Made by a program: the position numbers and the translations under genes
In this document: piece after piece, positions 1 to 46,086 of the stretch
Position numbering within the stretch: the first letter of the stretch is position 1
Layout: every line of letters begins with the position of its first letter
Assembly (NCBI GenBank): GCA_949130485.1
Contig: OX422193.1
Coordinates: forward strand, 2,296,371-2,360,370
Source of the DNA: Agelas oroides
Lineage: Eukaryota; Porifera; Demospongiae; Agelasida; Agelasidae
Length of the DNA: 64,000 nucleotides
Direction of reading: 5' to 3'
The notes under the pieces: model-generated
What the model was told of the DNA's origin: nothing
Seen by the model: only the letters and a program-made list of their open reading frames with translations
Database searches by the model: none

Positions 1-1464
1 ACAAACTGTTAGTAATAAGTACAAAGGCATAACAATTAGCCTTAACACATGAATATTGGAGCCATGCATTCTACACTACTGCCCTCCAGGACTACACCGT
101 AGTATAATATCAGGTTGGCGTTATTTGGAGTAGCTAAGCTTAGGCGTGTCAGATGGGAAACGGTGCCTGATGGCTCGTTCTGTTCAAGGTACGAGCATTT
201 TTTTTCATTTGGTATGCATATTAAAGTACTCACCCATACTTAATTACAGTGACATATATAATGACTTTAGAGAAATATGTATAGTCCATCGCGAACTTGC
301 TAAAATCTGGCACTGTTGTAGTCACAGACTCACGGCCAGACTCCCATACCAGCATAGTCCTAGTCTTGTGCCCAGGACCTAGACCTTCCTCTGTCCTAGC
401 TACTGTATTTAGTGTAAGCATAGATAGCTACTACTCTATTCTACCCGGCAGTATGTTGTATTACTGAAAGTGTAGAGAACTGGGACAAAAGTTCTTTTTT
501 TAGTTAGGGAAGGGGTGGCAGGGGGATCAAGGACTTGCTTGCGTAGGGAGGAAGTTGGAATTTGGCTGTATATTTGCTGTCAGCGTGTGGCATGGTCCCT
601 CAGAGAAATTCAGTAGAACCCTGAAATGCCTCAGCTGAGGGTACTTTGTAAAGAAACACTTCAGGTGAACAAAACGTGTTGAGATTGGGAGAGAAGGTAA
701 GGGAGGGGGGGGGGGGGGGGGGGGGGCTGGAAAGAAAATAATAAACACACTGGGGACAAAACTGTACAGCCACTCAAGCCAGTTACGGATTCATGCCCAA
801 TTATCAAGCGTCAAAATGTATACTGAAATGGCACAAGATGTAGGGATGCTGTAAAGGCACTATGGTGTCTTGCTTGATTGCTTTTTCAAAACATGTCCAC
901 ATGCATGTGCTTTTATTTGTTTATTTTTTGTGACTTGATAGGGGGATTTCATTTGACATCAACACTGCCAATATGTCATTTCTGTGATATATTGACAAGT
1001 AAACAATCAAGCTTATTTCAGCCATGCAATCTAGTGGAAACATTATGGGAAGTTGCTGTGTTTAACTCTTACTTGAACCTCTTGGTCGGGTGCCCCCGGA
1101 ATTGCAATATGGTGATGAACAGAACACCTATAATTATGCTCTCAAAGTAGGGACTGTTTACGGTGAAATGGGGCTGTCCCTGCTAACTGAAAATTTAAGT
1201 AAATTTAAAAACACTGCCTGCCCACATGGATTGGTTTATGGCGTATGACCAGAACCGATGAATTTTGTTACTATGGCTTAATCCACAGCTGCTTTATGAG
1301 TTTTGCAGTTTTCAAGTGACGAAGATTTTTGTTAAAGAAACAATGTCTTGTACTCATGTGTGAGTTGCTAACATACTTTTGCTACATGGTATTTGACTAC
1401 ACAAAGTTATGTTTAGTGCATTCCTTTTATTGCCATCTGTTCATTCAACATTTTTTAAATGTAG
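1..1464. other. No supported gene; probable upstream intron or 5' flank of the first gene
   Basis: I see no recognisable coding exon here. The stretch holds a poly-G run at about 707-726 and otherwise unremarkable AT-rich DNA. The death-domain exon at 1465 begins in the middle of a codon (phase 1), so at least one exon must lie here or before the window. I could not identify it. Short open frames such as 878-1150 have no domain content. Confidence 0.5.
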
Positions 1465-4400
1465 ATCCCACTCTCAACATCCGCAACCTATCTCAAGCTC
1501 TGGTGGAGGTTACTGACTACTATGGGTTGGGAATCAATCTAGGTCTTCAACTTCATGAACTGAAGAAGATCGAGGCAGACCATCAGGGTGTGAATAGGAG
1601 GAAGATGGAGGTGCTTGATCTTTGGTTACAGGGATCCAATCCACAATGGGAGGACCTAATTGTAGCTTTGCAACGCATCAAAATGTGGAATAAAGCTAGG
1701 AAGATACAGGGAGCACTTCAAAGAGGAGAGTACACAGGTATGTCTGCAGGATGGCTATGTTTGTATTATAGGCATATTTCACAGCTAGTATACGGAGTGA
1801 ATGTTTTGGTAAGTAACAGCCATGTACTTTGTTGAAAGCAAGTTACCTAGTTTTCTCATGGTAAACATTTATTTCAAACAGCAGACAGTTGGCTTAAACC
1901 TGAGTCACTGAGATGGAAAGTGAAGTACTATTGTTGGAGGCTTCCAGAGAAAGGTTAGTAAGATGGGTGCATGAAACTACACATGTGGTAGTGTGTTGAC
2001 CGTACATTTGTTTGTGTGAAACATGCTGGGCCTCTCTCCATTTTTCACTCAATTTCCAGGTGCTGGAGCTCTTTTACTCCTTATTGTTGCGTTGCTCTTT
2101 GCTGTGATCATCATCATGCTTGTTCTTGGAGTTCTGCTCTATTCACTTCTTGGCAACATAAATGTGAATGTGAACTCAGGTGTCCCAATGAAACCTGAAA
2201 ATGAAACATTAGAAATAAACACCACAGATTCCATTGCACTGTTTGAAAACCTTGCTTACGCTCCTCACAATCTGCCATTTCTAGATCCTACGCTTCCATT
2301 TGTCGGTAGAGAAAATGATGTTAGAAATGTTACAAACATCATAGTATCATATAAAGCCTCAATAGTTGGAATATCAGGATCTCCTGCTTTTGGAAAGTCA
2401 ACTTTAGCTATTCATATTGGATATAAAGTAGCCGAGAAAGGTATCATGGTGGGTTACATAAATGCTGATGAGGATGACTTGCTCTCTGAGGTTTCTGAAG
2501 GTATTGGAACAAGAGAAATGCTTGCAACAGAAAGCGTTCGCCCCTATTTTGGTAAGAAGGAAGAAACAATGGAAGATACAAAGTTTAAAGGTACACCAAA
2601 ACGCTGGGAGGAAGTGAAGAGGTGGGCTGCTAAGTTGAATGGTAGGGCTCTTCTTGTTTTAGACAACTGTGACAATCCTTTGGAAGAGCAAAAAGGAGAA
2701 CTATTCAAAAAAATAGTAAGTGAGATCTGGCAAGCTGGAGAGGGTAGACTGCAGCTTGTTATCACCAGTCAAACGGAAATTTCTTTTGCAAATATCAATT
2801 TCTTTCCTTATCCAATAAAAAAACTTAGCCTTCACTCCTCTGTGAGTCTGCTGAAGAAGATGGTTGAAGGGTATAGTGTTGCAATGAGTGATGAGCAAGC
2901 AGAGATGATTGGAAATCTCAGTGATGGCTGCCCATTAGCTCTGAGGATAATTGGAACAGAACTTCGAAGTCCAGAAACTGGAGTAACTGAGATAATTCAT
3001 GACCTGACATTGGAAATTATTAAAGTCATTTCTGATCATTCACTGCGAAATGTCAGTCGCTTCCAAGCTATCATGAATGTTGCCTATAGGCGCTTGAGTG
3101 GTGCTATGCAATATTGTGCACAACAAGTGTCTTTTTTTCCTGGCTCCTTTGATCTTCAAGCTGGTGAAAAATTACTTGATTATCGATTTCAATGCATGTT
3201 AGTGCTTGTCCAACGATCACTGCTGGATACATATAGGACTAGTTATGGAGACAATTTAGAGAGGAGATATCAGTTACATAAGCTTATTCAGAAGTTCTTT
3301 TTGGCAAAATACATTGAAGAAAATCACAATTCTACTTCTTTTGTTTTATGGGACAGTTTCAATCGCTCTCTCCAGAACTTCTACTCTGACTATGTTATGA
3401 GGTATGTTGAAGGAGAAAAGACTGAATGGCAGGAACTGAAATTTAGAGCTGAAGGGCACAACACTCAGCTTGCCATGGCAGTAACCATCGAGACATTATC
3501 CTCAGTAATGCCCTCACTTTCAGTACCAGTTGTTTATGGTTACTACAGGAGAATGGTACCAATGAATAGCCTAACCTTCATGAGGGTTTACTACATGCTC
3601 AATGATAAAGAACGTTTGTGTGATATACTTACATTGGAAGTCTGCAGTGCAGTGTATGCTGACTTGTTCTATCAATACTACATTCATGAGTGCAAGGAGG
3701 ATCATCACAACTGCACATTATTCAAGTGTGAGCATGTGATCCATGCTTCCAATCTGCTCTTTAATATCGGAAACATACCTGTAGATGAGCCTACCACCCG
3801 TTCCTTCCTGAAACTTTTTCACAGGTACATCTGGATGTGCAAGTTTGTTTTCATGAGCCGTGCCCAGCCTTGTGTATTTGCCACCTTAATTGCCATCCAT
3901 CTGTTGCTTCACATTGTGAGATGGAAAAAGTTTCAGCAATTGATGCATGTTTTCTTCTGTACTTTACTTTCTGCATGTCTTGCTCTGTCATCTTATATTC
4001 ATTACAGCATTCCATGCATCTTAGGTATCCTAGAGGCTTTCAGTGCAGTTTATGGTCACAAATTTAGTGTTATCTATCTCTTGAGGATGAAGTATGTTTG
4101 CTTCTGTCTGTTTCTGCTTTCATCACCACCTCTTCCTTTTGTTATTGGATATATCACTTTTGTGGTTGTACTCATCTATGTACATCGTGGACCAGTTGCT
4201 CGTTTCTGGTCTAGTTCTCAAGCTCTTCACTCTATTCTATATAGCAATAGTGAGCACCGCATACTCTTGTTGTGTATTTACGCTGTTGCTATTGTCGATT
4301 CTGTCAACAGCAGCATAAACCAAAATTGTGTCATTGAATATGTTGTTGCTGCATATTTTGTTTTACTTACATTGTGTATCACCACTATTAACATGTTTCC

Positions 4401-4698
4401 TCCTCTACGTATCTTTGGGTTCAAAATCCAGCACCTTTATTCTTTTACCCATGTGTGTTTTATCTTAATGCCTAAAGTCCTCTCTCATTCTCTGTGGCAG
4501 TCTCCTATTCCAGTGGAGCTGTTACAGCCTATCCCCTGGTTTTACACAGTACCTTTTGAGAGTGATCTGTGTTATATTCCTCTCTCAGTTGTTGCTTTTG
4601 GTTTGCTTGCTGTTATGCTATTAGACTGTCTTCACCTGTTGTATCTATATTGGCTAACATGTCGCACATTGTACATCTCTGATGTTGCAATTTTATAA
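1465..4698 (+). CDS. Death-domain / transmembrane / NB-ARC protein with polytopic C-terminus (5' end missing)
   Basis: Three exons join in frame: 1465-1737 (91 codons, death domain), 1882-1953 (a NAGNAG acceptor also allows 1885) and 2060-4698 ending TAA. All junctions are phase 1 with GT-AG borders. The first exon shows a six-helix death fold (NLSQALVEV...LGLQLHELKKIE...WLQG). Exon 3 opens with a hydrophobic stretch of about 30 residues (GALLLLIVALLFAV...), then an NB-ARC/STAND NTPase: P-loop GSPAFGKST at about 2377-2403, Walker B LLVLDN near 2650, VITSQ, and a GLPL-like GCPLAL. From about 3800 to the stop lie roughly eight hydrophobic segments typical of a multi-pass membrane protein. There are no LRRs. 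NB-ARC proteins with death domains normally act as nucleotide-switched signalling scaffolds; the polytopic tail is unusual and its role is unknown. The start exon is not visible. An AATAAA lies 277 bp after the stop. Confidence 0.75.
2023..2059 (+). other. Possible alternative start giving an NB-ARC isoform without the death domain
   Basis: An ATG at 2023 is in frame with exon 3 and runs unbroken through the acceptor at 2058-2059 into the membrane segment. A transcript starting here would make a signal-anchor NB-ARC protein lacking the death domain. This is read directly from the frame. Whether it is used is not known. Confidence 0.3.
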
Positions 4699-21288: not shown

Positions 21289-24200
21289 ATGGGTGGCTGT
21301 ACCTCCAAACGAGAGTTGCCAGAACAGGTTTCAAGTCGTTCAGTGCGACACAACCTGCCTGGTGCTGATTCAGCTGAGTACCAAGCATTTCAGTCATGTT
21401 TTGCAGTCTTGAGCAATGGAATCACTGAGCCAGGCTGGCTTGCCACAGAACTGTACTCCAGAGACATGATTTCTAGAGATATGAGACGAGAAGTTCAACT
21501 TGAAACACTTCCTGCTTCAGTGCGAACCCATAAACTTTTGTCATCAGTTGAGGACCAAATTGTAACCAGTCCTACATCCAAGTTCAGAGACCTCCTGGAT
21601 ATCCTCTACAGTGAGCCCTCACTAGAGCATCTGGCAAGAAAGTTGGAGGAAGCTTACAGTAAGTTTGCATTGTAGCAACCACTGATCAAAGTTTGGCATA
21701 GGCCATGCAACATTAATTGTTAGTTTCTCATCCTCATCTGTGCCCATTATAACTGCTAATTTTGCACCACTGTTGCCTTCCAAAGGTAACAGTTAATGCC
21801 ATTACGTATCTCAGACTACAAGTAAGGATCATGGTGTAGCTAAAGCCTCTCAGTAAACATACCCAAGAATCAGTGAAATTCTTCAATCCTCTGGATTTTA
21901 AGAATTATGCTCGTATGCTTGTGCATGGCTACTAATTACACTCATAATGCTGATAGGATAGAAGATGGCTCCACTGTAGTACTGTAGTTGTGACTTCACG
22001 ATGTCCTACTGTCCATGCCCTCTGGTGGAGAATGTCTGGGGGGTTGATTTGTTGTCACTAACACCTTTCTCATCTGGTGTGTGGGATGAGCAATGGAATC
22101 GCAGGGTGTAAAAAGTTGTTACATCACCATAAGAGTTGTGAGTATACTAATGTATGTCATTTACCGAAAGCTCCTGAAATAAATCCCTCCTTTTTGCACA
22201 CTACTTTCAATTAGTCTCATGCATACTCCACATGGTTCCTCATGATACTACTCGCAAGGTTGACAATCACAACAATTGCCATGACTTTCTGGAAGAACAG
22301 CAGCTTTGGTGACTGTATACTATGAGAAATCAGCAGCACTTATGTTGATACTAAGCCAAGAGGCATCGAAGCAGCTTCCATCATCACTGATGACAGGGGA
22401 CAACCCTGCATAAGCTATTGCAAGCAGTGAAAATCTTGGCGGTGGCCAGCAAATAACACTATAGTGATTTAGTGTGTACGTGTTTACAAACACACACAAT
22501 GACAGAGCTAAACCAAAACCTCACTTAAAGCATGCCCAGATCTAGAAGATGCTCACTACGGAGCGTTCACATGATGGAAAAATTTCTTTCCAAGAAATTG
22601 GGGGTTAAGGAGGGTGAGGGTGTTTGCTCGAAGGGGGTGTATTTTGGGAGGTCTTATGGTATGATTATATATAACTCACCTGCGTATTAGCTAATGTTTG
22701 TGCTCAGTATACTGTGTGTTTGCTGTGTTCCTTAGACCATTTGCAGGCAGCTATAATGAGCTTCAGTGGTTGCAGATTAAATTCATACGTTTATTGTATG
22801 TCTGCAGGTATGCATACATGCAGTTCTGTTATCTGCAGTGTTAATGTTGTTGTATAAACTTTGTGGTCTTCTTTCTAAAATTGTGTTCTTCCAATTGGAC
22901 ACTTCCATAAGTCCTATAATTGTTATAACTATTTTTCTACACAGGACCAGGTGCACTTGGAGAACACAGAGTAAGTGATTCAAAATGTGGTGAGAAAAAG
23001 AATCATGATTGTACCGATGAAGGGAAAGGTATGTTTCCTGCACCTGGCATAGAGGTAGAGAGAGTACCTGGTGAGTCAGTGACACCAGTCAAATATCCTC
23101 CCACGCAATCTCCCCTCTCACTTCCCAGCAAACCACTTGAGAATTATGCTTTTTTCCTTCAATCATGCTACACAAGACCATTTACTTCTATGAAATGGCC
23201 ACATTTAGATGCCAGGAAGTATATCAAGCTAGCAGTGATCAGTAATGAGTATGCTAACAGGAAAGAACTTGAAAGGTTCAGACAACAAACAATTCATGGT
23301 TCCATTGATGATATTTTAGAGTGGAAGGCTCCCATTGAAATGGAGGATATTCTCAAACCAAACTGTGTGTATGACATTCATGATGATGAGAAACATGAAC
23401 ACTACCCAGTAACCCAACTGCTAATTGAAGGTGCCCCAGGCATCGGTAAATCTACATTTGCATGGGAGGTGTGTCAGAAGTGGGGCCAGCACCAGCTTTT
23501 CAATGAGTATTCCCTAGTGGTCCTGTTAAAGTTTCGAGATAAGAGAGTGCAAGAAGCTAAGAGTGTTTCTGACTTGTTTTACCATCCCAACCCCAAGTTG
23601 CAGTCTGAAATTGCTGATTTCATTACCATTACTGGTGGTCATGGGCTTTTGCTAATTCTTGAGGGATTCGATGAGGCTCCTGCTTCAAAACAAACAATGG
23701 ATTCAATTTTTGTTAGGCTGTTTACCGGGCAAGAACTTCCCATGGCCACTGTGCTCTTGACTACCAGACCTAGTGCTAGTGCATGGCTTCGTAAACTTTG
23801 TACAGGTAATCATTCCCGCACAATTGAGATTGTAGGCTTTGGTGAGAAGGAGATAGAAGAGTACATTCAGTGTGCTTTCTCAGATCAGCAGTCACGATCA
23901 GATTTCAAGGAATACCTCTCCCTCTATCCACACATCCACAGCATGATGTATGTGCCACTTAACTCAGCTATAGTCACTCGGGTTTATGAGTCTTGTAAGT
24001 CAAGTGGCATAGTTCCCAAAAACATGACCCAGCTTTACTCATCCCTGAGTAGAACCCTACTGCTGCGCTATTTGGAGGATAAAAAGGAGTACAAGGATAC
24101 ATGTACAACTATCAACAGTTTCAAAGATCTTCCTCAACCTGTGTATGATCAGTTTTGTGAGATTTGTAAGATAGCATACACAGGAATCATGAGTGCTGAG

Positions 24201-26195
24201 ACTGAGCTTATCTTTCAAGAGATTCCCAATGACTTTGACTCACTGGGATTGATGCAGAGCTGTCCAGAGCTGTATGTGGATAGGGGAAGATCTGTTTCCT
24301 ATAACTTCCTCCATTTCACTTTTCAAGAATATCTAGCTGCATATCATTGTTTTCAAGAAGGTGAAACCTCCTCTGAAGCATTCATAAAGGAGCACATTAA
24401 TGAAGCAAGACTTCAGGTGGTTGTGAGCTTCCTCTCAGGTCTTTCTAAGCCAAAGTTATCCTTTTGGACAAACCCTGAAATGGAGAAGCTTGGAAATGTG
24501 CAATCCCCACAAGGTATCAACATTCACTTTCTCCACTGCCTATTTGAATCACAAGTTCTTATCTCACCGCAAACCATGGGTACTTCACCTTATGGAGAAC
24601 GTACAGTCTCACAATCAATTAAAAGTTGTCCAGAATCTGTCACCTTTTTTTACAATGGTGTTATAACGCCATATGACTTTTATGTTCTCGGCCACTGTGT
24701 AGCTCACAGTAAGTGGTCTTGGCGAATTCAGGTCCAGCGACCTAGCAGTGGGGACTGGCTTGATGCAATGCTGAATGGACTTGAGACTAAGCGAAAGAGT
24801 GGGTTTATTACAGAAATAGACATTTCTTATTGTGAGTTTGGAAGCAGCATGCCACAACTAATGAAATTGCCAATGCAGCACTTAACTCACCTAGTGCTTA
24901 ACCATACACAAATCACCAGCTCTAGTTTAGATGGCTTAAATTTTAGCATGATGCAGAAGCTGCAATATCTCAAACTTGATTACAACAATTTTGGAAATGG
25001 AGGTTTAGAAGAATTGATTCTGTCATTCTCAGAGCCAAAGTCTTCCCTAACTGAGTTGCACTTAAGAAAAACAGGAATTGGTAGTAAGGACTGCAAAGCA
25101 CTGGGTAAATTATTGGAAGTTGCCACATGCTTAAAAGTTTTAGAGGTTTCTGATAATGATCTGGACCACACGAGTATTCAGTCTATCATTGACAGTGTCC
25201 CAAACAGTACTTCACTGCAGAAGTTAGGAATATCTGGTTCTTCACCAACTATAACTAGTCTGTTATCCTTGAAATCTAAATTAGAACATCTTGACATTGG
25301 GTCTTGTAAAATTTCAACTGAAGATTTGTGCAAATTTGCTGAAACTATTGCCAACAGTCGTAGTACTCTTCGGTACCTATCATTATCTGCAAACTCAGCA
25401 AAAAAGTGTAGCTACGCTATAAGTAGCATGATTAGGACAAATGCAAGCTTACATTTTCTCTTTCTTCAACATTGTGAACTTCAAGGTGATGGTCTCACTG
25501 AAATTGCTTCTGCATTGGAAGAAAATGACACTCTGGAAAGTCTAGACCTCAGTGACAACAAGCTATATTCAAAGTATGTTCCTCAATTTGCAGAAAAGCT
25601 TCAGAAAAACTCAAAGCTGAAAAGGCTGGCAATACAAGTAGATGATTCTGTGGCTTGTCTTGATGCTTTTGACCGATTAGTATCAGCAGTACAATCACAC
25701 CCATACTTGACCTCACTCAGTTTGTGTGAAAGTAATCTTGGAAATGATGGTGCTCAAATAATAGCCCAAAAATTAATAGCAAGTGAACACAGACTATGTA
25801 ATCTTTTGCTAGACAAGTGTAACATAAAGAGTGATGGTGCAAATCATATTGCTACGGCACTAAGAGAGAATAAGTCTCATCTTAAGTTTCTTCTGATGAG
25901 TAGAAATCCAATTGAATGGAAAGATGTTGTAGAAATTGTGGCAAATACTACTTCACTTCAAGAACTAGATCTTCGCAATACCGGAACACCTCGAAATAAG
26001 CAAGAATTCATACAACTCACTGAATGCCTTAAAAAGAGTAACTTGAAAAAACTTTGGCTTTCAGAAGATTGCAAACCCTCTCCATTTAAAGTAGAACCAC
26101 AATCTATCATTACTTTCTGGCCATCTGATCTTGAAGTAGCTGGTTATAAGTATGAAAATCTGTTAAGAAAAGTATTAGAAGGATTAATGGGCTAG
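21289..26195 (+). CDS. CARD-NACHT-LRR protein (NLR) with N-terminal acylation signal, 1206 aa
   Basis: Two exons, 21289-21658 and 22945-26195, join in phase 1 (3621 nt). The protein starts MGGCTSK: Gly2 and Ser6 fit N-myristoylation, and Cys4 could be palmitoylated. Residues about 25-120 form a helical CARD-like death fold (FAVLSNGITEPGWLATELYS...). After a linker comes a pre-NACHT segment, then NACHT: Walker A GAPGIGKST at residues 286-294, Walker B LLLILEGFDE, sensor TTRP, and the winged-helix region around YNFLHFTFQEYLAA. The C-terminal third is about ten ribonuclease-inhibitor-type LRRs (LTELHLRKTGIG, LESLDLSDNKL). Such NLRs sense microbial or danger signals and recruit caspases or adaptors through the CARD. 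Acylation would place this one on the inner face of a membrane. The ATG follows a strong acceptor, so a 5' UTR intron is likely. Intron 1 (1286 bp) holds nothing recognisable. Confidence 0.88.
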
Positions 26196-28620: not shown

Positions 28621-30164
28621 CTAATTAGTCTTCATGCAAAATTTCATGCTCCAAAGTACTCTCTAACATCTCTGGCATTGCCATGCACTCTAGTAGCCAC
28701 AACAGACATATTGTCAACGACTATACAGCACCACATGATAACTGGATGTGGTGACTGCTAAGCCTTATTAATTCACACTGGTGGACTTTTGCTTGACTGC
28801 AGACCAGAACCCTATGACACTTTTATGTGTAAAGATATAGCATCACAAAGATAACACACATTTTTGCCATAAGGAAGTGGAGCCTTAATATACTTGGGTA
28901 ACTCGTGAAATCTGTAATGCACATGCAGAAAGTTTCCTAGCATTTTTGTATGCCTCTAGATGTAGTAGAGGCATTCAAAATGCTAGGCAAAATAGGCAAA
29001 CAATCTGGATCAGATGAGAAATTTTCCCCTTCTTTCCAAAGTCACCATTTGATTTTGAAGATGTGAACACAGGTGACTGAAGTGAAAACAAATGGTGCAT
29101 CAACTGCAGAGCCATCTTATACAAATACTGCTGCTAAGATTCCAATAACCAACTGATTTTCAAAGTCAGACAATGTATGCCACATATTTGTCATAGTGGG
29201 AATACTGCACTCCTTATGAACCCACTTTACTAGTTAGTCTTGTACGCTGCACCCTTCACAAAATGGGGAGGGTCTCGTCGCACTGCAACCATCGCGTTGT
29301 CACCACAGCAGAATGTTGCCATGATCGATCAGATAAATGCTTTTCGTAGATAGAACCCATTGACATGGACACAGTAGCAAAACAGGTTTAGCCATGCACT
29401 AAAATAACTTTCTTCCTCAGCGACAACTCGTCAGTTGTATATAGCATGACCAGACTATATACTCCTCTTTGTGGCTGCAAGAATATCTACTAGTTTGTTG
29501 CAAAAATTATATATTATGGGAATAATAAAAATTATTATACGCTGGTCACAATAAGCATTGTGAAAAGCATGCAGGGTCAGAGATACAATATAATTGTTGA
29601 TGTGTGTCACCAAGATTCAACAGAAAAGGACAGCAATTTGGTGCGACAATAGGAACTTGTGCAGATTCGTATCAGCAAAACAAGATAGCTTTCCTAGTGA
29701 AGTGAACTTCATCTGGTAGAGAAAAGAATGCATTCCATTATTCAGAATTTTCCATCATAATTGGATCACTTTACCAAGGAGGGTGGCCTGGGAGATTTTC
29801 CCTATCAGGAAGGCACAAGGATTCTCCACACCTCTCCCCTCTGGCTAGGTAGACATTGATTCACTTGTGATAAAATCTCTCAGCCTGGTCACTGTGTATC
29901 AAGTAGCCACGCACAGTGTATATTCAAGGTAGCCTCATTCCTAGTTCTTTACCCTCCTAGGAATTTATCACTTCATGAATATTGAGAGGAAGGTGTGGGA
30001 ATCTCGTAACATGCAGTGATGTCATGTAATATCAAGTAGATTAAATGTAGTCACACAAGGAGTGGTACTCAACCATTACAATTCATATGTGGGCTTTGCA
30101 TTGATCAGTTCGAGTGTACCAAATTGACACTGCCTTACAAACCTTCAGACATTGAACAGACATA

Positions 30165-30230
30165 TATCCTTGTACCCAGGCTCCTCCCCATGCCGAAAAG
30201 CAGCATGGGGAGAGCCTGGGTACGAGGCTA
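30165..30230. mobile_element. 66-bp palindromic mini-element with 11-bp target duplication
   Basis: The hairpin CCTTGTACCCAGGCTCCTCC... / ...GGGGAGAGCCTGGGTACGAGG is flanked by two exact copies of GAACAGACATA (30154-30164 and 30231-30241). The flanking duplication shows it arrived by insertion. It is the best-defined member of a hairpin family also seen at about 8441, 17470, 19686, 28021, 47768, 50872, 51114 and 53052. Confidence 0.75.
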
Positions 30231-30328
30231 GAACAGACATACAATTTACAAGCCAGAAGGGTCTCAAGACTGTCGAGCAGAGCCTTCTGTGTCTACCTTC
30301 TGTCTACCTAGTACGGAAATTACCACAT

Positions 30329-30720
30329 GTGACGAGATCTCTTAGGCTTTCTTCCACTGTGACGAGATCTCTCAGGCTTTCTTCCACTGTAGCGAGATCT
30401 CTCAGGCTTTCTTCCACTATGGCGAGATCTCTCAGACTTTCTTCCACTGTGACGAGATCTCTCAGGCTTTCTTCCACTGTAGCGAGATCTCTCAGGTTTT
30501 CTTCCACTGTAGCGAGATCTCTCAGGCTTTCTTCCACTGTGACGAGATCTCTCAGACTTTCTTCCACTGTAGCGAGATCTCTCAGGCTTTCTTCCACTGT
30601 GGCGAGATCACTCAGGCTTTCTTCCACCGTGGCGAGATCACTCAGGCTTTCTTCCACTATGGCGAGATCTCTCAGGCTTTCTTCCACTATGGCGAGATCT
30701 CTCAGGCTTTCTTCCACTGT
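30329..30720. repeat. Minisatellite, thirteen 30-bp units
   Basis: About 13 head-to-tail copies of a 30-base unit, each containing GAGATCTCTCAGGCTTTC with few substitutions. The period is a multiple of three and the units lack stops, so both strands are open across it (SLRLSSTVTR repeats on +, EESLRDLATV repeats on -). No flanking coding context supports a gene. Confidence 0.9.
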
Positions 30721-31289
30721 ATTTGTACATCAATAAATCAAATACTGGAGACAGTGAAGATGTGGAAATTTGGCTATGCTCAAGGTCAATGGGTATAAAT
30801 ACATTAGGCCCCTATTTGTTGCATATTAGTTTCTCATCAGGAACTTACTCTAAAGTTCGTGCGGGCGGGCGGTCATTACCATTATACCATTATTCGCCTA
30901 CCGCAAAAGAAAGTTCGGCCCCTGGACTCACGCGCGAGGCCACGCTCCATGTGAAGGAAGTAAGGGAGGGAGAAATTTTTTAGTTGTTTTCAGTACGCTG
31001 AGTAGGAAATTCAACCTGTCAATCAGCTGCATCGACGCTTACAAAGTGCGAGATCGATAAAATATACAATAATGGCCAGCGAAGCGGGTCCCAAAAAGCA
31101 TGCGGGTGGGGGATTAGAAACTAACATGCAAAAAATATGGCCTTACTTTGTACAGTCAAACCGTAAAGCCGTCGTCTCATTTGCAGTGAGATCAAGTTGT
31201 CAAGTACCCAAATGATCAAACTTTTGGGACTATTGTATTAGCTGTGACTAGCTACAGTGACTCGGAGTAACTACCTTTTTTGCACACAA

Positions 31290-40890: not shown

Positions 40891-41756
40891 TTATACTCTC
40901 AGACTATGCCTCTGATTGACCTACCCTTTCACATACATACCCTTTGGATATAGACAATTTTTACCATGAGTGGGGCACGCTCATGCTCGCCCCAATGGAT
41001 GGCAAGGAGCATCTTTACCTGCTTTACACTAGTGCATGCATCATGAGCCAAAAGTACCCAATGCCCTCAACACACATAGCAATGATTTTAGCTGCAGGAA
41101 TTTTTTTTCTGGAGTCGCTGTGAGGGGTGATTGTGGTGTAGCACCGCTTTCTCATGCATGTTAGTTAACAGAAGTATCGTGTACAATGGTACTGATCAAT
41201 TTGCTATTGGATTGGATGTTTACTGATTGTTCTAGATGTGAGAGTTATTAAAGCTACATTATTTATTTCATTCACATTGGGTGTAATATACCTGATCATT
41301 ATTTATACTGTTGTATAATATCTATTTAACTGTTTCCCATCACTCCCCTTTGTCCAGATGCCAATTGCTACTGAGTCTCAGAATTTTCAGGTCAATACAG
41401 TGAATGCAAGTCAAAGACAACAGCAGTACATTTGCCACCATTGCCAACTGGGTGTAACCCTTGGTCATGCCCTTCCTGTGTCTGTGTTTATGTTAGGGTT
41501 CTCAGCTGTAAATATGGAGCTAACAACCACATACCACATAAACTTCATCAGCCAGTGGTATGTTCATCCACATCACATGACCTTCAGATATGCACCCCTG
41601 GTGCTGCCATTCAGCAATATACTACCAACCATGGTTCTCCAGTGCGGAGTGTTGTGGTCAAACATCAGGAGTTTTTTCTATAGCTCATCCCACTTTGATA
41701 TCTCTGTTACTGCCAGCCTAAATCTTAATTTGTTTTTCAGTCTGGGTAGGAGCATC

Positions 41757-44700
41757 ATGAGGCTGGTATTGCTTCTACTTCTTGTGCTGAGTGGTGATGT
41801 AGAGTTGAACCCAGGTCCTCTTGGTGAGTAGATTTTGATATATATGCTGTACAACCTTTCATCACACATACCACATTTTCATTATATAGGCCAGCAGCTG
41901 GGTATTAATGACTTGCCTGATGTAATGGAAGAGTTAAACATTATCTGTGCAAAATGGTATGATGTCGGCATGCAGCTACGAGTGAGTGTTGATACACTGG
42001 ATGCCATCAAGGAAAAAAACCCAAACAATCCCTCTAGTTGTCTGAGAGAAACTCTCAAGACATGGCTAAAAGAATTCCCCCAATCCCCTACGTGGAACAA
42101 TATTATAGATGCCCTAAGAAGCAACGTTGTTGGTGAAGTGAGGCTTGCTGCACACCTGGAACAAACACACTGCCCAGTAAAAGACACAAGTCTTCCTGCC
42201 ATCACACCACCAGTATCTCCACCACAATCTCTCACTTTGATGACTCCATCACCTACTGCCCACCACACACAGCCATCATGCTTTGGTTTCACCTACACTA
42301 TGGCACCACAGCCGCACTCCTGCCTCTCCCCTACTTGGTCTCCTTACTATTACCATCCAACAAGCAGTTACCCAGTTTCCACTTTATTTTGCCATCCACA
42401 CACATCTAGAGCAAATAACTCTGCTACACTTCCCAATAGTTACTCACAACACTCTCAAGTCCTGCCTGTCCCTACCCGATCAATATCCAGATCTTCCCCT
42501 TCTCCATTAGTATCTGAACAGCTGACTATGCCCCAGCTTACCCCTTCATTATTGCCAATACACGTAACTGCATCACCTCAGTACACAGCACTACAATCTC
42601 TCCCCATCTCTGGTAACTTTGTCCCTGAAGATACACCTACACCACCTGCAACTGTGACCACAGCTACTCATCCCTCACAAGGTATCTTATATTTGTAGCA
42701 ATATTATTTGTATGAGCTGCATATGAGAAATTATTTACTATAAGCCTGTTCACACTGAATTCAATTCAGGACCCTCAAGGCCACATATTACTGTGGAAGA
42801 TCAAGTTCGATTCTTTGAAGATGAACTTGGCAGTCTTATAGACAAGGCCTACAAAGAAGTGACCAAAAAAATGGAACCCTCTGTCTTTCTTTCCCGTATT
42901 ACGTACCTGCCTGTGTCCACTCGCACCCAGCATCGAAGCTTTGTTGTGAAAAAATTGACCAACATTCCACCACCAGTAACCTTTGAAAACATTTGGTCCA
43001 ATTTGAACCTCTACTGGGACTTTCTGAACTATGGACTATTGGAACATGTTATCAATAAATGCGGAAGTGAAGACTTAAAAGAGAAGATGCAGAGTTATAC
43101 TAATCAACTCTCTGCATTCAAACAAAGAACTCGCCTCTGTGACTTTATCGACAGCTGGCCATGCAGAGATGATGGGCCACCACCAGAAGATGGTCTCAAG
43201 CAGTTGGTTGTCAAAATGAAGCAAGAATGGTCCCAGTGCACACTACAAGATGTGGAGTCATTCAAGAAAGCTCTCATCCAAAAGTTCCTTCAACCTGAGT
43301 TTGACGTACTCCTCCAAAAGGCTATGGAGGGGTGTGTCTGTGTTACGTGGCTCATCTCTCCATTCATTGCCACACAACTGCAGAACCGGGCAAACATGGC
43401 TACAGAATTTTTCAAGGAACACAAAATTGATGCAGTGACTATTGATGGTGAGGATGTTTACCTCACCCCTGTCAATAGGTATATTGGCTACCTAAGGAAG
43501 CTGTACAACTCTAAGCTAGAGCCAGTGGGCATTTGCCCTCCTACACAAACTGAGAAGCTTCTTCCCTTCAAGCTTGCAAGGATTGAGAAAGAGAAACTCA
43601 GCATAGTAGATGAGTTCACGAAAAGGTACGTACGAGGGGATATGGATGATGTTGGTTCATACAGTGCTAATTCTTACAAAAAATCCCCAATAGAATTACA
43701 AGAAGTTGGCAAACTTCCAAGTCATTCACAACAAAAGGTGATTCTGATTGAAGGTGCCCCTGGCATGGGCAAGACCACCTTCAGCTGGGAGTTCTGCAGA
43801 ATGTGGGGTAGAGGGGAGATTCTGCAGGGCTATTCCCTGCTGCTCCTACTCCCACTGCGTGACAACCACCTGAAAGAGGCCAAGACCATCTCAGACCTCT
43901 TCTATCACCCAGAATCAGAGCTCAAGCAGGCAGTGATCCAGGAGGTCACCAACAATCAGGGCCAGGGAGTGGCCATCTGGCTGGATGGATGGGATGAACT
44001 CGATCATCAACTACGGGAAAGTGCTTCTGTGTTTCTCGACCTCATCCATGGTAGAATCTTACCCCATGTGACTCTGTTTGTCACAAGCAGACCTTGGGCC
44101 AGTGAGCATCTCAGAGAGAAGTGTGGACGCCGAATTTTCCAGCATGTGGAAATCCTGACATCTGCAAAAGACCAGATTGCACATTATATCAGCAAAGCTG
44201 AAGCTGAAGCTCACCCTAGTTCATTTGCTGCAAAATTCACTGACTACCTCATGTCAAATCCTGTTATCAGGGCAGCTATGTACACACCTGTTACAGCAAA
44301 GATGTTAGCAAAAGTGTTCATCTGGAGACTGCACACTGAGTCACCCCCACCCAACACATTGACTGAACTCTTTGATGCCTTTACCCTCAAGACCCTGGTA
44401 GACCATCTCTCAGAACAACCCCCACATAGTAAGCAGCAGTTGGAGGTTACCACTGTCAATCACCTCCCCAGAGAGGTTTATGAGCAATTCCAGAGCCTGT
44501 GCAGAATGGCTTATGAAGGTATACTAAACAGGCAACAGCTGGTTTTCTCTACCTCCCACCTACCCACTACTGATGCCTCACTCGGCATGATGCAGGAAGT
44601 CCCTCAACTATACACCAAGGGCAAGACCTATCATTTCATCCACTTGACACTACAGGAGTACTTGGCTGCTGTCCACATCTCACATCTTCCCACAGATGAT

Positions 44701-46086
44701 CAAACAAGAATGGCTCAAGAACATTTTAGCAGTGGCCACTTCAAAATGACAATAAGGTTCCTTGCTGGACTTACAAAGTCAGTAAATATACCTACTAGAA
44801 AATGGATGGTGAGTAATGATAACAAACTCATGTATTTTCACATTTTGTTCGAATCAAAAGGCAGTTTACTGACTACAAGAGATTTGTCAGATGAGATAAT
44901 TGTCAACTCACACTACTCCTGGACTCCCCTGGATTACTATGTGACAGGGCATGCCATCTCACATTCCAACTGTTCCTGGAGACTACGGTTTTACAACTCC
45001 TTCATTGATGATGAGAAATTTGCACTGTTTTGTCAAGGCTACGCCACCCCAGGGGAAACTAGATGCAGACACTGTATCTCATATGCCAACTTCAGTGACA
45101 ATCACATCACCTCCAAAAGCATACAGTCATTTGCAAACATACCCTACCATATGCTACCAGACATGAAAGAGCTAGACCTGAGTCACAACAAACTGGATGG
45201 GAGTGCATGTAACTTGCTAGCCGAGGTAGTCCCATCTATGTCTAGCTTAGAGGAACTTTGGCTCAGCTACAACCCAATAGAGTGTGGTGGTGCTGTGAAT
45301 CTAATTGAGGCACTCTGTGGCAGTGGAGTGAAACAACTGTGGCTTGTCAAGACTGGAATTGGAATGCCAGATTGTGAGGCCCTGTGTAAACTACTGAAAA
45401 CAAGTCGCTCACTTCAAAGTCTTCACATTGACCACAACAACTTGTCTACAAACAGTGTAGTGAGTATCATAACTGGACTTGTTCACAGCAAGTCATTCAC
45501 AGACCTGGACATTTCAAACTCGCAATTCAGCATGGCAAGTGTGCATTGTTTATCCACTTGTGTACTGAACGACAAGTCAAATTGCACACTGACATTTCTG
45601 CGGCTACAAGAGTGCTGCATCAGTAGTGAAGGTGCAGTTAAACTGGAAGTTGGACTCTGCAACAACACTACACTTCAATACCTGAACTTGAGTAAAAATC
45701 CCATTGGAAAGCATTTTATGGGAGTGATGGCATTGGCAAAAGTTTTAGTAGAGAACAAAACACTGAAAGAGCTGACGTTATACAACTGCCACATTGGTGA
45801 ACGGGGTGCGTGTAAACTGGCAGACGCACTCCACAAGAATTCAAGTCTGAAGCTTTTGAACCTAGGTCATAACCCCATTGGTGTGAAGGGTGCCTCCTCA
45901 ATTTCAGAGATGATACAACAGAACACATCTCTGAAGGAACTTCAACTGCGTGATGACTCACTTGGAAAAGAGGGGGTTCACCATCTCATTAAAAGTTTGA
46001 AACATAACAAGACATTGCAGGAACTGCAGCTGCCAGAGAAGTACAAATTAGAAACCTGCGACGATAGAATTAATTGGCGGAACTGA
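41757..46086 (+). CDS. 2A-leader / death-domain / NACHT-LRR protein (NLR), 1391 aa
   Basis: Exons: 41741-41823 (ATG at 41757), 41890-42681 and 42770-46086; junctions are phase 1, and 4176 coding nt divide exactly. The start gives twelve mostly Leu/Val residues, then GDVELNPGP, a complete 2A motif. Exon 2 encodes a death domain (residues about 25-110) and a Pro/Ser/Thr-rich linker to about 286. Exon 3 begins with a helical region of about 280 residues I cannot name (FLNYGLLEHVINKCGSEDL, then EGCVCVTWLISPF). NACHT follows: Walker A GAPGMGKTT at residues 615-623, Walker B VAIWLDGWDE, sensor TSRP, and FIHLTLQEYLAAVH. The C-terminus is about nine RI-type LRRs ending at the TGA. The short start is preferred because a strong acceptor (TTTTTCAG) lies 16 bases before it. 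The frame is open back to 41358, so a longer start cannot be excluded. Confidence 0.88.
41793..41819 (+). promoter_or_regulatory. 2A ribosome-skipping motif
   Basis: Codons encode GDVELNPGP, matching the D-x-E-x-N-P-G-P consensus in full. Translation would skip the bond between Gly (41814-41816) and Pro (41817-41819), releasing a 20-residue leader and starting the receptor with Pro. The leader is hydrophobic enough to be a signal peptide when skipping fails. Sea-urchin NLR genes are known to have N-terminal 2A sequences that double as signal peptides; this is the same layout. Confidence 0.9.

Follow-up and report, generated by a model that had tools for sequence, protein, structure and literature searches.

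Expanded Death/NACHT/LRR families were reportedly described in Amphimedon by Yuen in 2014, and the cellular use of 2A has, to our knowledge, few described examples. A precedent among NLRs comes from the sea urchin Strongylocentrotus purpuratus, whose 14 SpNLR2A sequences, as tabulated by Roulston et al. (2016, Traffic), comprise 26 residues at the very N-terminus (PMC4981915). For the motif itself, a PNAS survey of 2026 describes six StopGo classes, and the four for which it gives assays (1, 3, 4 and 6, the last of them L-rich) were about 92.7% to nearly 100% active in reticulocyte lysate (PMC12846837). Among sponges, a 2026 account of Dysidea avara reports expanded Death/NACHT/LRR families and transmembrane domains in some NLRs (PMC12909245). 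Here we describe a gene of the sponge Agelas oroides that joins these themes. A sequence-only reading of the same DNA had seen in it the layout of sea-urchin NLR genes, and the tabulated SpNLR2A sequences make that precedent a real one (PMC4981915).

The window gene and its 2A motif

The window, the whole stretch of 64,000 nucleotides that was analysed, lies at C11:2296371-2360370 in a 259 Mb assembly of 141 contigs. A pattern search for a silicatein-like active site, taken as a sponge marker, gave one hit, of cathepsin-like sequence (CGSCYAF), which is uninformative on that point. On its forward strand, positions 41757-41823 translate as MRLVLLLLLVLSGDVELNPGPL, with gtgagt right after, and the octapeptide DVELNPGP at 41796-41819 satisfies the D(V/I)ExNPGP pattern of StopGo/2A in the sequence and in genome pattern searches; the predicted skip falls between Gly (41814-41816) and Pro (41817-41819). 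The hydrophobic stretch and canonical 2A that had been noticed at 41757-41823 are indeed present, ahead of a Death-NACHT-LRR gene and in an L-rich context. This context reads ..LLLVLSG before the motif's D and, compared by eye with the L-rich classes as that survey presents them, is suitable, although position 15 is L in the window gene and those classes favour S (PMC12846837).

The motif belongs to a probable first coding exon (41358..41823, +), recognized by an AG followed by ATG, an open frame and genomic matches, that encodes a pre-2A polypeptide of 153 residues and runs on through the closing Pro of the 2A into the codons that follow. By sequence and Kyte-Doolittle scan, the hydrophobic segment leading into the 2A covers residues 132-148 (41751..41801, +) and includes the Met at 41757; the site of the family's first hydrophobic segment, residues 35-51 (41460..41510, +; LGHALPVSVFMLGFSAV), is not above chance in the window copy by the same scale. 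A predicted phase-1 intron, gtgagt...tatag (41824..41889, +; acceptor at 41888-41889), leads into exon 2 (41890..42681, +), which encodes a Death domain (PF00531, Pfam match 41910-42119, E 7.6e-07) and then a Pro/Ser/Thr-rich linker. After a second predicted intron, exon 3 (42770..46086, +) encodes a linker, a NACHT domain (43738-44196; PF05729, E 4.6e-18), LRRs (about 45166-45906; LRR_6, E 1.3e-17) and the stop at 46084-46086. All three domain matches are above their cut-offs and are joined by predicted splicing; the joined gene from 41358 would have 1524 residues, with the predicted skip after residue 153.

Elsewhere in the window, a NACHT-LRR frame occupies 22929-26195. There is no second NPGP, so NLR genes with and without 2A both occur in the window. 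At 1320-4698 a frame encoding a Death domain precedes another, whose NB-ARC match is weak (20.1 against a cut-off of 23.5) and in which many hydrophobic stretches can be seen by eye; this may be a membrane-bound STAND gene. At 30128-30798, where no gene is obvious, short frames repeat TVARSLRLSS and CSEISQAFFH units in tandem.

NPGP alone is unremarkable, since AAYCCNGGNCC occurs once in the window against 0.50 expected. Genome-wide the full motif behaves differently: GAYNTNGARNNNAAYCCNGGNCC (D-x-E-x-NPGP) gives 286 matches in 259 Mb and the reversed-pattern control none, with 179 matches of the D-V-E form and 104 of the D-I-E form, and GDVE-x-NPGP with a hydrophobic x gives 42 matches against 0 in the control. 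Classification rests on the 222 places listed among these 286, of which 146 lie in leaders of the two families described below (A and B) or precede Death or NACHT matches. The A and B exons contain 129 distinct listed sites, one counted in both families. Of the 93 listed sites outside them, 13 have a Death match in the 6.5 kb that follow, 4 have a NACHT match in the 16 kb that follow, 44 overlap a match to a 2A-PHD mobile element and 32 are unclassified, L042, L044, L047, L048 and L050 among the latter. A Death match lies inside 34 of 36 distinct 3-kb loci around 2A sites (L001-L038 minus two repeats); the two loci without one, L003 and L024, have listed Death matches 3.1 and 1.5 kb downstream. 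The motif is not due to chance and is seated before Death exons.

Leader families and the receptors behind them

Used as a query, the 155 codons from 41358 gave 67 matches in the genome (family A), 64 of them stop-free; 27 start from residue 1, 61 cover residues 31-154 or more, and nearly all full-length matches share 39-54% identity with the window exon. A second family, B (MGIDLATWRARIG...), gave 86 matching pieces, 81 after merging; it likewise carries the 2A and precedes Death exons. Ahead of the tail no significant similarity between the families was found among 15 A and 13 B sequences (best blastp E 0.05; hhalign probability 0.4%), and for want of any such resemblance we favour repeated assembly of the layout within this genome. 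By a fixed rule applied to the listed sites, the motif is intact in at least 61 of 66 merged A exons and in at least 66 of the 81 merged B exons (at least 69 of 81 allowing 150 bases past the match). By one and the same pattern, donor-like sites follow NPGP at 22 of 23 family-A and 10 of 14 family-B loci; L009, the exception in family A, is intronless.

Position and strand tie both families to Death domains. Among the matches listed, at least 53 of 66 A exons are followed, on their own strand and no more than 5 kb away, by a Death match (median distance 380 bases), and none has one upstream or on the opposite strand. For family B the figure is at least 27 of 81 exons, a lower bound because 150 of 864 Death candidates were scored. 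Four paralogous loci bear on the same coupling (INDEPENDENCE from splice prediction): in L009, L045, L051 and L052 a single frame runs without a break from the leader through the 2A into Death-like sequence, so that no predicted intron enters the argument there. The Pfam Death match is above cut-off in L051 and just below it in L009 (20.5 vs 22.6); it is not called in L052 or L045, where the Death-like label denotes similarity to the window protein. L045 represents a further group, with Death-like sequence straight after the 2A. L038 retains a donor and so provides no intronless fusion.

We assembled 41 places at 54% or more identity to the window NACHT from 143 rows, dropping two second pieces. 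Other NLR first exons do carry the leader, in answer to a search that the sequence-only reading had called for: a family-A leader occurs in the 12 kb before 30 of these 41 close relatives. Coordinates compared by hand add seven more with a 2A (L022, L023, L025, L027 and L054, and, with a B leader, L026 and L028), for a total of 37. Of the rest, C1:27841531 keeps the start of the leader only (L053), C22:4549656 reads DIQTNPGP (L055), and those on C21 and at C1:399386 are fragments. As a control, a NACHT match lies within 12 kb downstream of 30 of 66 A exons and upstream of 8 of 66, the latter because arrays produce such neighbours. Of the 100 other listed NACHT places, 3 have an A or B exon upstream, and another four 2A sites are found no more than 16 kb from a place in this set. 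Set against 37 of 41, these few indicate that the 2A leader is the rule for one NLR subfamily and not for all. A further large NACHT expansion is found on contig C17, where identity to the window NACHT is about 40%; for none of the places listed there does an A or B leader occur in the 12 kb upstream.

In L039, the one family-B gene read further, the linker is followed by a 1437-residue ankyrin-repeat frame, with NACHT absent. This locus and L003-L008 belong to a family-B 2A-Death array at C1:4.06-5.10 Mb, nearly all on one strand and mostly spaced every 10-30 kb. L044, L048 and L050 make up a further leader group: L044 and L050 share a WRA(K/R)IG motif with family B, the L048 frame begins AKIGLW, and no downstream domain was found in the listed frames of these three loci. 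In the protein database, a window query (residues 1-270 of an 800-residue piece) had one match, P0002, in which a predicted protein kinase is linked to a Death sequence from the window's family while leader and 2A are absent; the link may be a gene-calling fusion. A family-B query had 12 matches (P0003-P0014); P0003-P0007 cover 99-100% of the leader-2A-Death query, and P0008 is 100% identical to part of L039 over 41% of the query. The family-B matches may be gene calls on unspliced DNA from the same or a close animal.

Leader length, hydrophobic segments and the proposed two-part product

The sequence-only reading counted the first 21 codons of the protein from 41757, and this start is not confirmed. 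The frame containing the 2A is open over 41319-41831, its ATG at 41358 stands directly behind the pyrimidine-rich tttgtccag, and the homologous exon is about 150 codons long. Across the aligned family-A copies the first Met (41358 in the window) is kept in 14 of 15, with AG immediately before it in 15 of 15. This alignment comprises 15 of 23 loci and leaves out L016, L018 and L021 (missed by the start pattern), L022, L024 and L025 (altered leaders), L027 (a stop just before the core) and L037 (start unmatched). A Met 12-26 residues ahead of the motif, in contrast, is found at 5 of 23 family-A loci, the window included, and at 2 of 14 family-B loci. Since the upstream frame is homologous in 61 of 67 matches, the first Met is kept in nearly all aligned copies and the near Met is found in few, the pre-2A product is probably about 153 residues long and not 20. 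No exon upstream of 41358 was identified. Copies on contig C9 mostly match from about residue 26-27 onward, and L056, the one of them that was read, has a different N-terminal part.

Several measures bear on whether the long leader is coding. Pairwise gap lengths are divisible by three in 433 of 463 cases in family A (14 sequences) and in 46 of 46 in family B (13 sequences), and the other two forward frames contain stops in 14 and 12 of 14 A sequences and in 13 and 13 of 13 B sequences. Ahead of the tail, median dN/dS is 0.49 in A (104 of 105 pairs below 1) and 0.41 in B (78 of 78 below 1); over the last 24 codons it falls to 0.22 and 0.26, respectively. Between the window and 10 paralogues, pre-2A dN/dS is 0.42-0.65, overlapping the shifted-frame controls (0.59-1.19 and 0.59-0.87), in an alignment built in frame 0 and so favouring that frame over the controls. 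The leader frame is kept, with moderate amino-acid constraint and fast evolution.

Two hydrophobic segments recur within it. By Kyte-Doolittle scan a hydrophobic segment, at most a candidate signal peptide, adjoins the 2A in the window gene, and the hydrophobic run before the 2A exceeds six residues in families A and B. Of 31 leaders from four groups (15 A, 13 B, 2 C, 1 D), 29 have a first segment, defined by a 17-residue Kyte-Doolittle mean of at least 1.85, and in each of these it also exceeds shuffles of its own leader at p < 0.05. The window (1.64, p 0.36) and L006 (1.44, p 0.33) fall short on both counts. Within family A, the other 14 leaders reach 2.08-2.51 against the window's 1.64; standing at shuffle level, the window gene has lost, or nearly lost, this family feature. 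Where present, the first segment ends 56-109 residues ahead of the skip point. An AlphaFold model of the paralogue L052 (12 sequences; mean pLDDT 38, pTM 0.27) places helices at residues 36-72 and 138-155 that fit the two segments but are almost wholly below pLDDT 50; in its Death region (residues 181-220) block means are 69-79.

We propose, with a probability of roughly 0.55, that StopGo splits a small N-terminal protein from a cytosolic Death-NACHT-LRR receptor and leaves a minor, tethered, uncleaved form. The window gene would then be a receptor encoded as a two-part StopGo polyprotein, in which exon 41358-41823 gives a polypeptide of about 153 residues ending in the hydrophobic, L-rich 2A. 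Most ribosomes would skip the Gly-Pro bond, releasing this 153-residue protein and a 1371-residue cytosolic receptor that starts with Pro, while the minor uncleaved product of 1524 residues would retain the hydrophobic tail and be membrane-tethered. Efficient skipping of the window 2A is expected by analogy, because its LSG and L-rich context is close to the L-rich StopGo classes and the four classes assayed were active. The released piece would be membrane-prone in most paralogues, where the second hydrophobic segment is present, and less clearly so for the window gene. The sequences themselves show the motif, the layout of the gene, its recurrence across the family, the conserved frame and Met of the aligned copies and the family's hydrophobic segments; from these we infer splicing, skipping, membrane insertion, topology, a separate role for the released piece and the localisation of the products.

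A more elaborate version, in which the first product is a membrane protein made one to one with the receptor and the skip ratio reports ER docking, so that soluble or tethered receptor is made according to the state of the secretory pathway, strikes us as doubtful. The ribosome exit tunnel holds about 35-40 residues. A first segment ending 56-109 residues before the skip point is beyond what the tunnel holds, and SRP could see it first; with that segment intact, as in 29 of 31 leaders and not in the window's, the ribosome could be docked on the ER translocon when the skip choice falls. In artificial polyproteins, as described in PMC2978324, the 2A reaction can be inhibited when the part before it is translocated. 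Two membrane spans would keep the receptor cytosolic, suiting a Death-domain protein better than secretion would, and the charges around the second segment, by eye, do not clearly support a hairpin.

Of the rival readings, the strongest, which we still hold to be unlikely, keeps the start at 41757 and sees a 20-residue signal peptide plus 2A as in sea-urchin NLRs, so that skipping would give a cytosolic receptor and read-through one that enters the secretory route. Both Mets are present in the window gene, and the one at 41757 is well placed, directly adjoining the hydrophobic core. Moreover, L022, L024 and L025 have lost most of the long leader and carry MERR/MRR right before the core, like the short sea-urchin form, which indicates that a short leader is viable; decay of the window's first segment to chance level suggests that its long leader may no longer matter. 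For one sea-urchin leader, SpNLR2A6, the published account demonstrates both skipping, at about 80%, and signal-sequence activity (PMC4981915). Against this stand the open upstream frame, homologous over most of its 155 codons, and the rarity of a near Met beside the well-kept upstream one; for a 2A at the very N-terminus of SpNLR2A type (26 residues), Met 41757 is present, yet the homologous frame starts at 41358. The secretory route of the sequence-only reading comes out weakened, because the hydrophobic tail is in part an L-rich StopGo context and also precedes the 2A in the mobile-element copies read, while the short-leader paralogues and the well-placed window Met continue to speak for it.

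That same overlap invites a reading in which the tail is simply the L-rich exit-tunnel context for StopGo, with no targeting role, and leader-2A units were captured from mobile elements to add or shed an N-terminal extension. L-rich contexts ending in (A/S/C)G are among the StopGo classes described in that survey (PMC12846837), and nearly half of the listed sites outside A and B (the 44 of 93) overlap a PHD-element match. Five mobile-element-like loci (L041, L042, L043, L046 and L049) also have hydrophobic residues before the 2A, followed by a PHD-like finger or cysteine-rich start; L046 carries PHD and DUF6570, so such elements here need not all be retrotransposons. The window protein, however, matches the element loci only over about residues 137-178, the tail and motif; the hydrophobic run in A and B is longer than six residues; and the upstream segment stands above its shuffles in nearly all leaders of four groups. 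We regard this reading as quite unlikely. Decay is visible among near relatives, L053 keeping a leader start without 2A and L055 combining DIQTNPGP with a broken hydrophobic tail, so the window's 2A could conceivably be a decaying relic whose skipping activity is gone; with the motif intact in most A and B exons although nearly all full-length A matches are only 39-54% identical to the window exon, and dN/dS at 0.22-0.26 over the last 24 codons of the leaders, this is highly improbable.

Relation to known 2A systems

If the proposed two-part StopGo polyprotein is confirmed, over a hundred Death-domain genes in one animal genome would have StopGo as their shared front end, and leader families without detectable shared sequence would have reached the same layout. 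The leaders would provide naturally occurring 2A variants, equivalent to a mutagenesis experiment in the host itself, and a testable account of why some sponge NLRs are reported to have transmembrane segments. Having both genes and mobile elements with the motif in one genome would also allow its origin to be tested. APE-type non-LTR retrotransposons bearing 2A were reportedly described by Odon et al. in 2013; the 2A elements of this genome resemble those in having hydrophobic residues and a 2A near the N-terminus, before a PHD-like finger, with the Death domain absent.

We found no 2A leaders in sponge NLRs in the open-access literature; a 2025 survey of eukaryotic and viral 2A (Rao, Cell Reports), outside that scope, could already list these genes. 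The main text on Dysidea avara contains no mention of NPGP, skipping, 2A-like, 2A peptide, recoding, signal sequence or signal peptide (PMC12909245). With the L-rich StopGo classes, as the survey presents them, the window gene shares D(V/I)ExNPGP, D at position 12, G at position 11 and an L-rich stretch before; it differs in having L and not S at position 15 and in belonging to cellular immune-type genes, whereas that survey covers virus genomes (PMC12846837). What it has in common with SpNLR2A, as tabulated, is that a Death-type NLR gene carries, at its N-terminal end, a 2A-like motif together with a hydrophobic leader (PMC4981915). Here, in contrast, the exon is some 130-165 codons in length and a second hydrophobic segment is usual; there are two or more leader families, and a Death-ankyrin gene also has such a leader. 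The principle is therefore known from sea-urchin NLRs; the leader length and the scale seen in this sponge are new to us.
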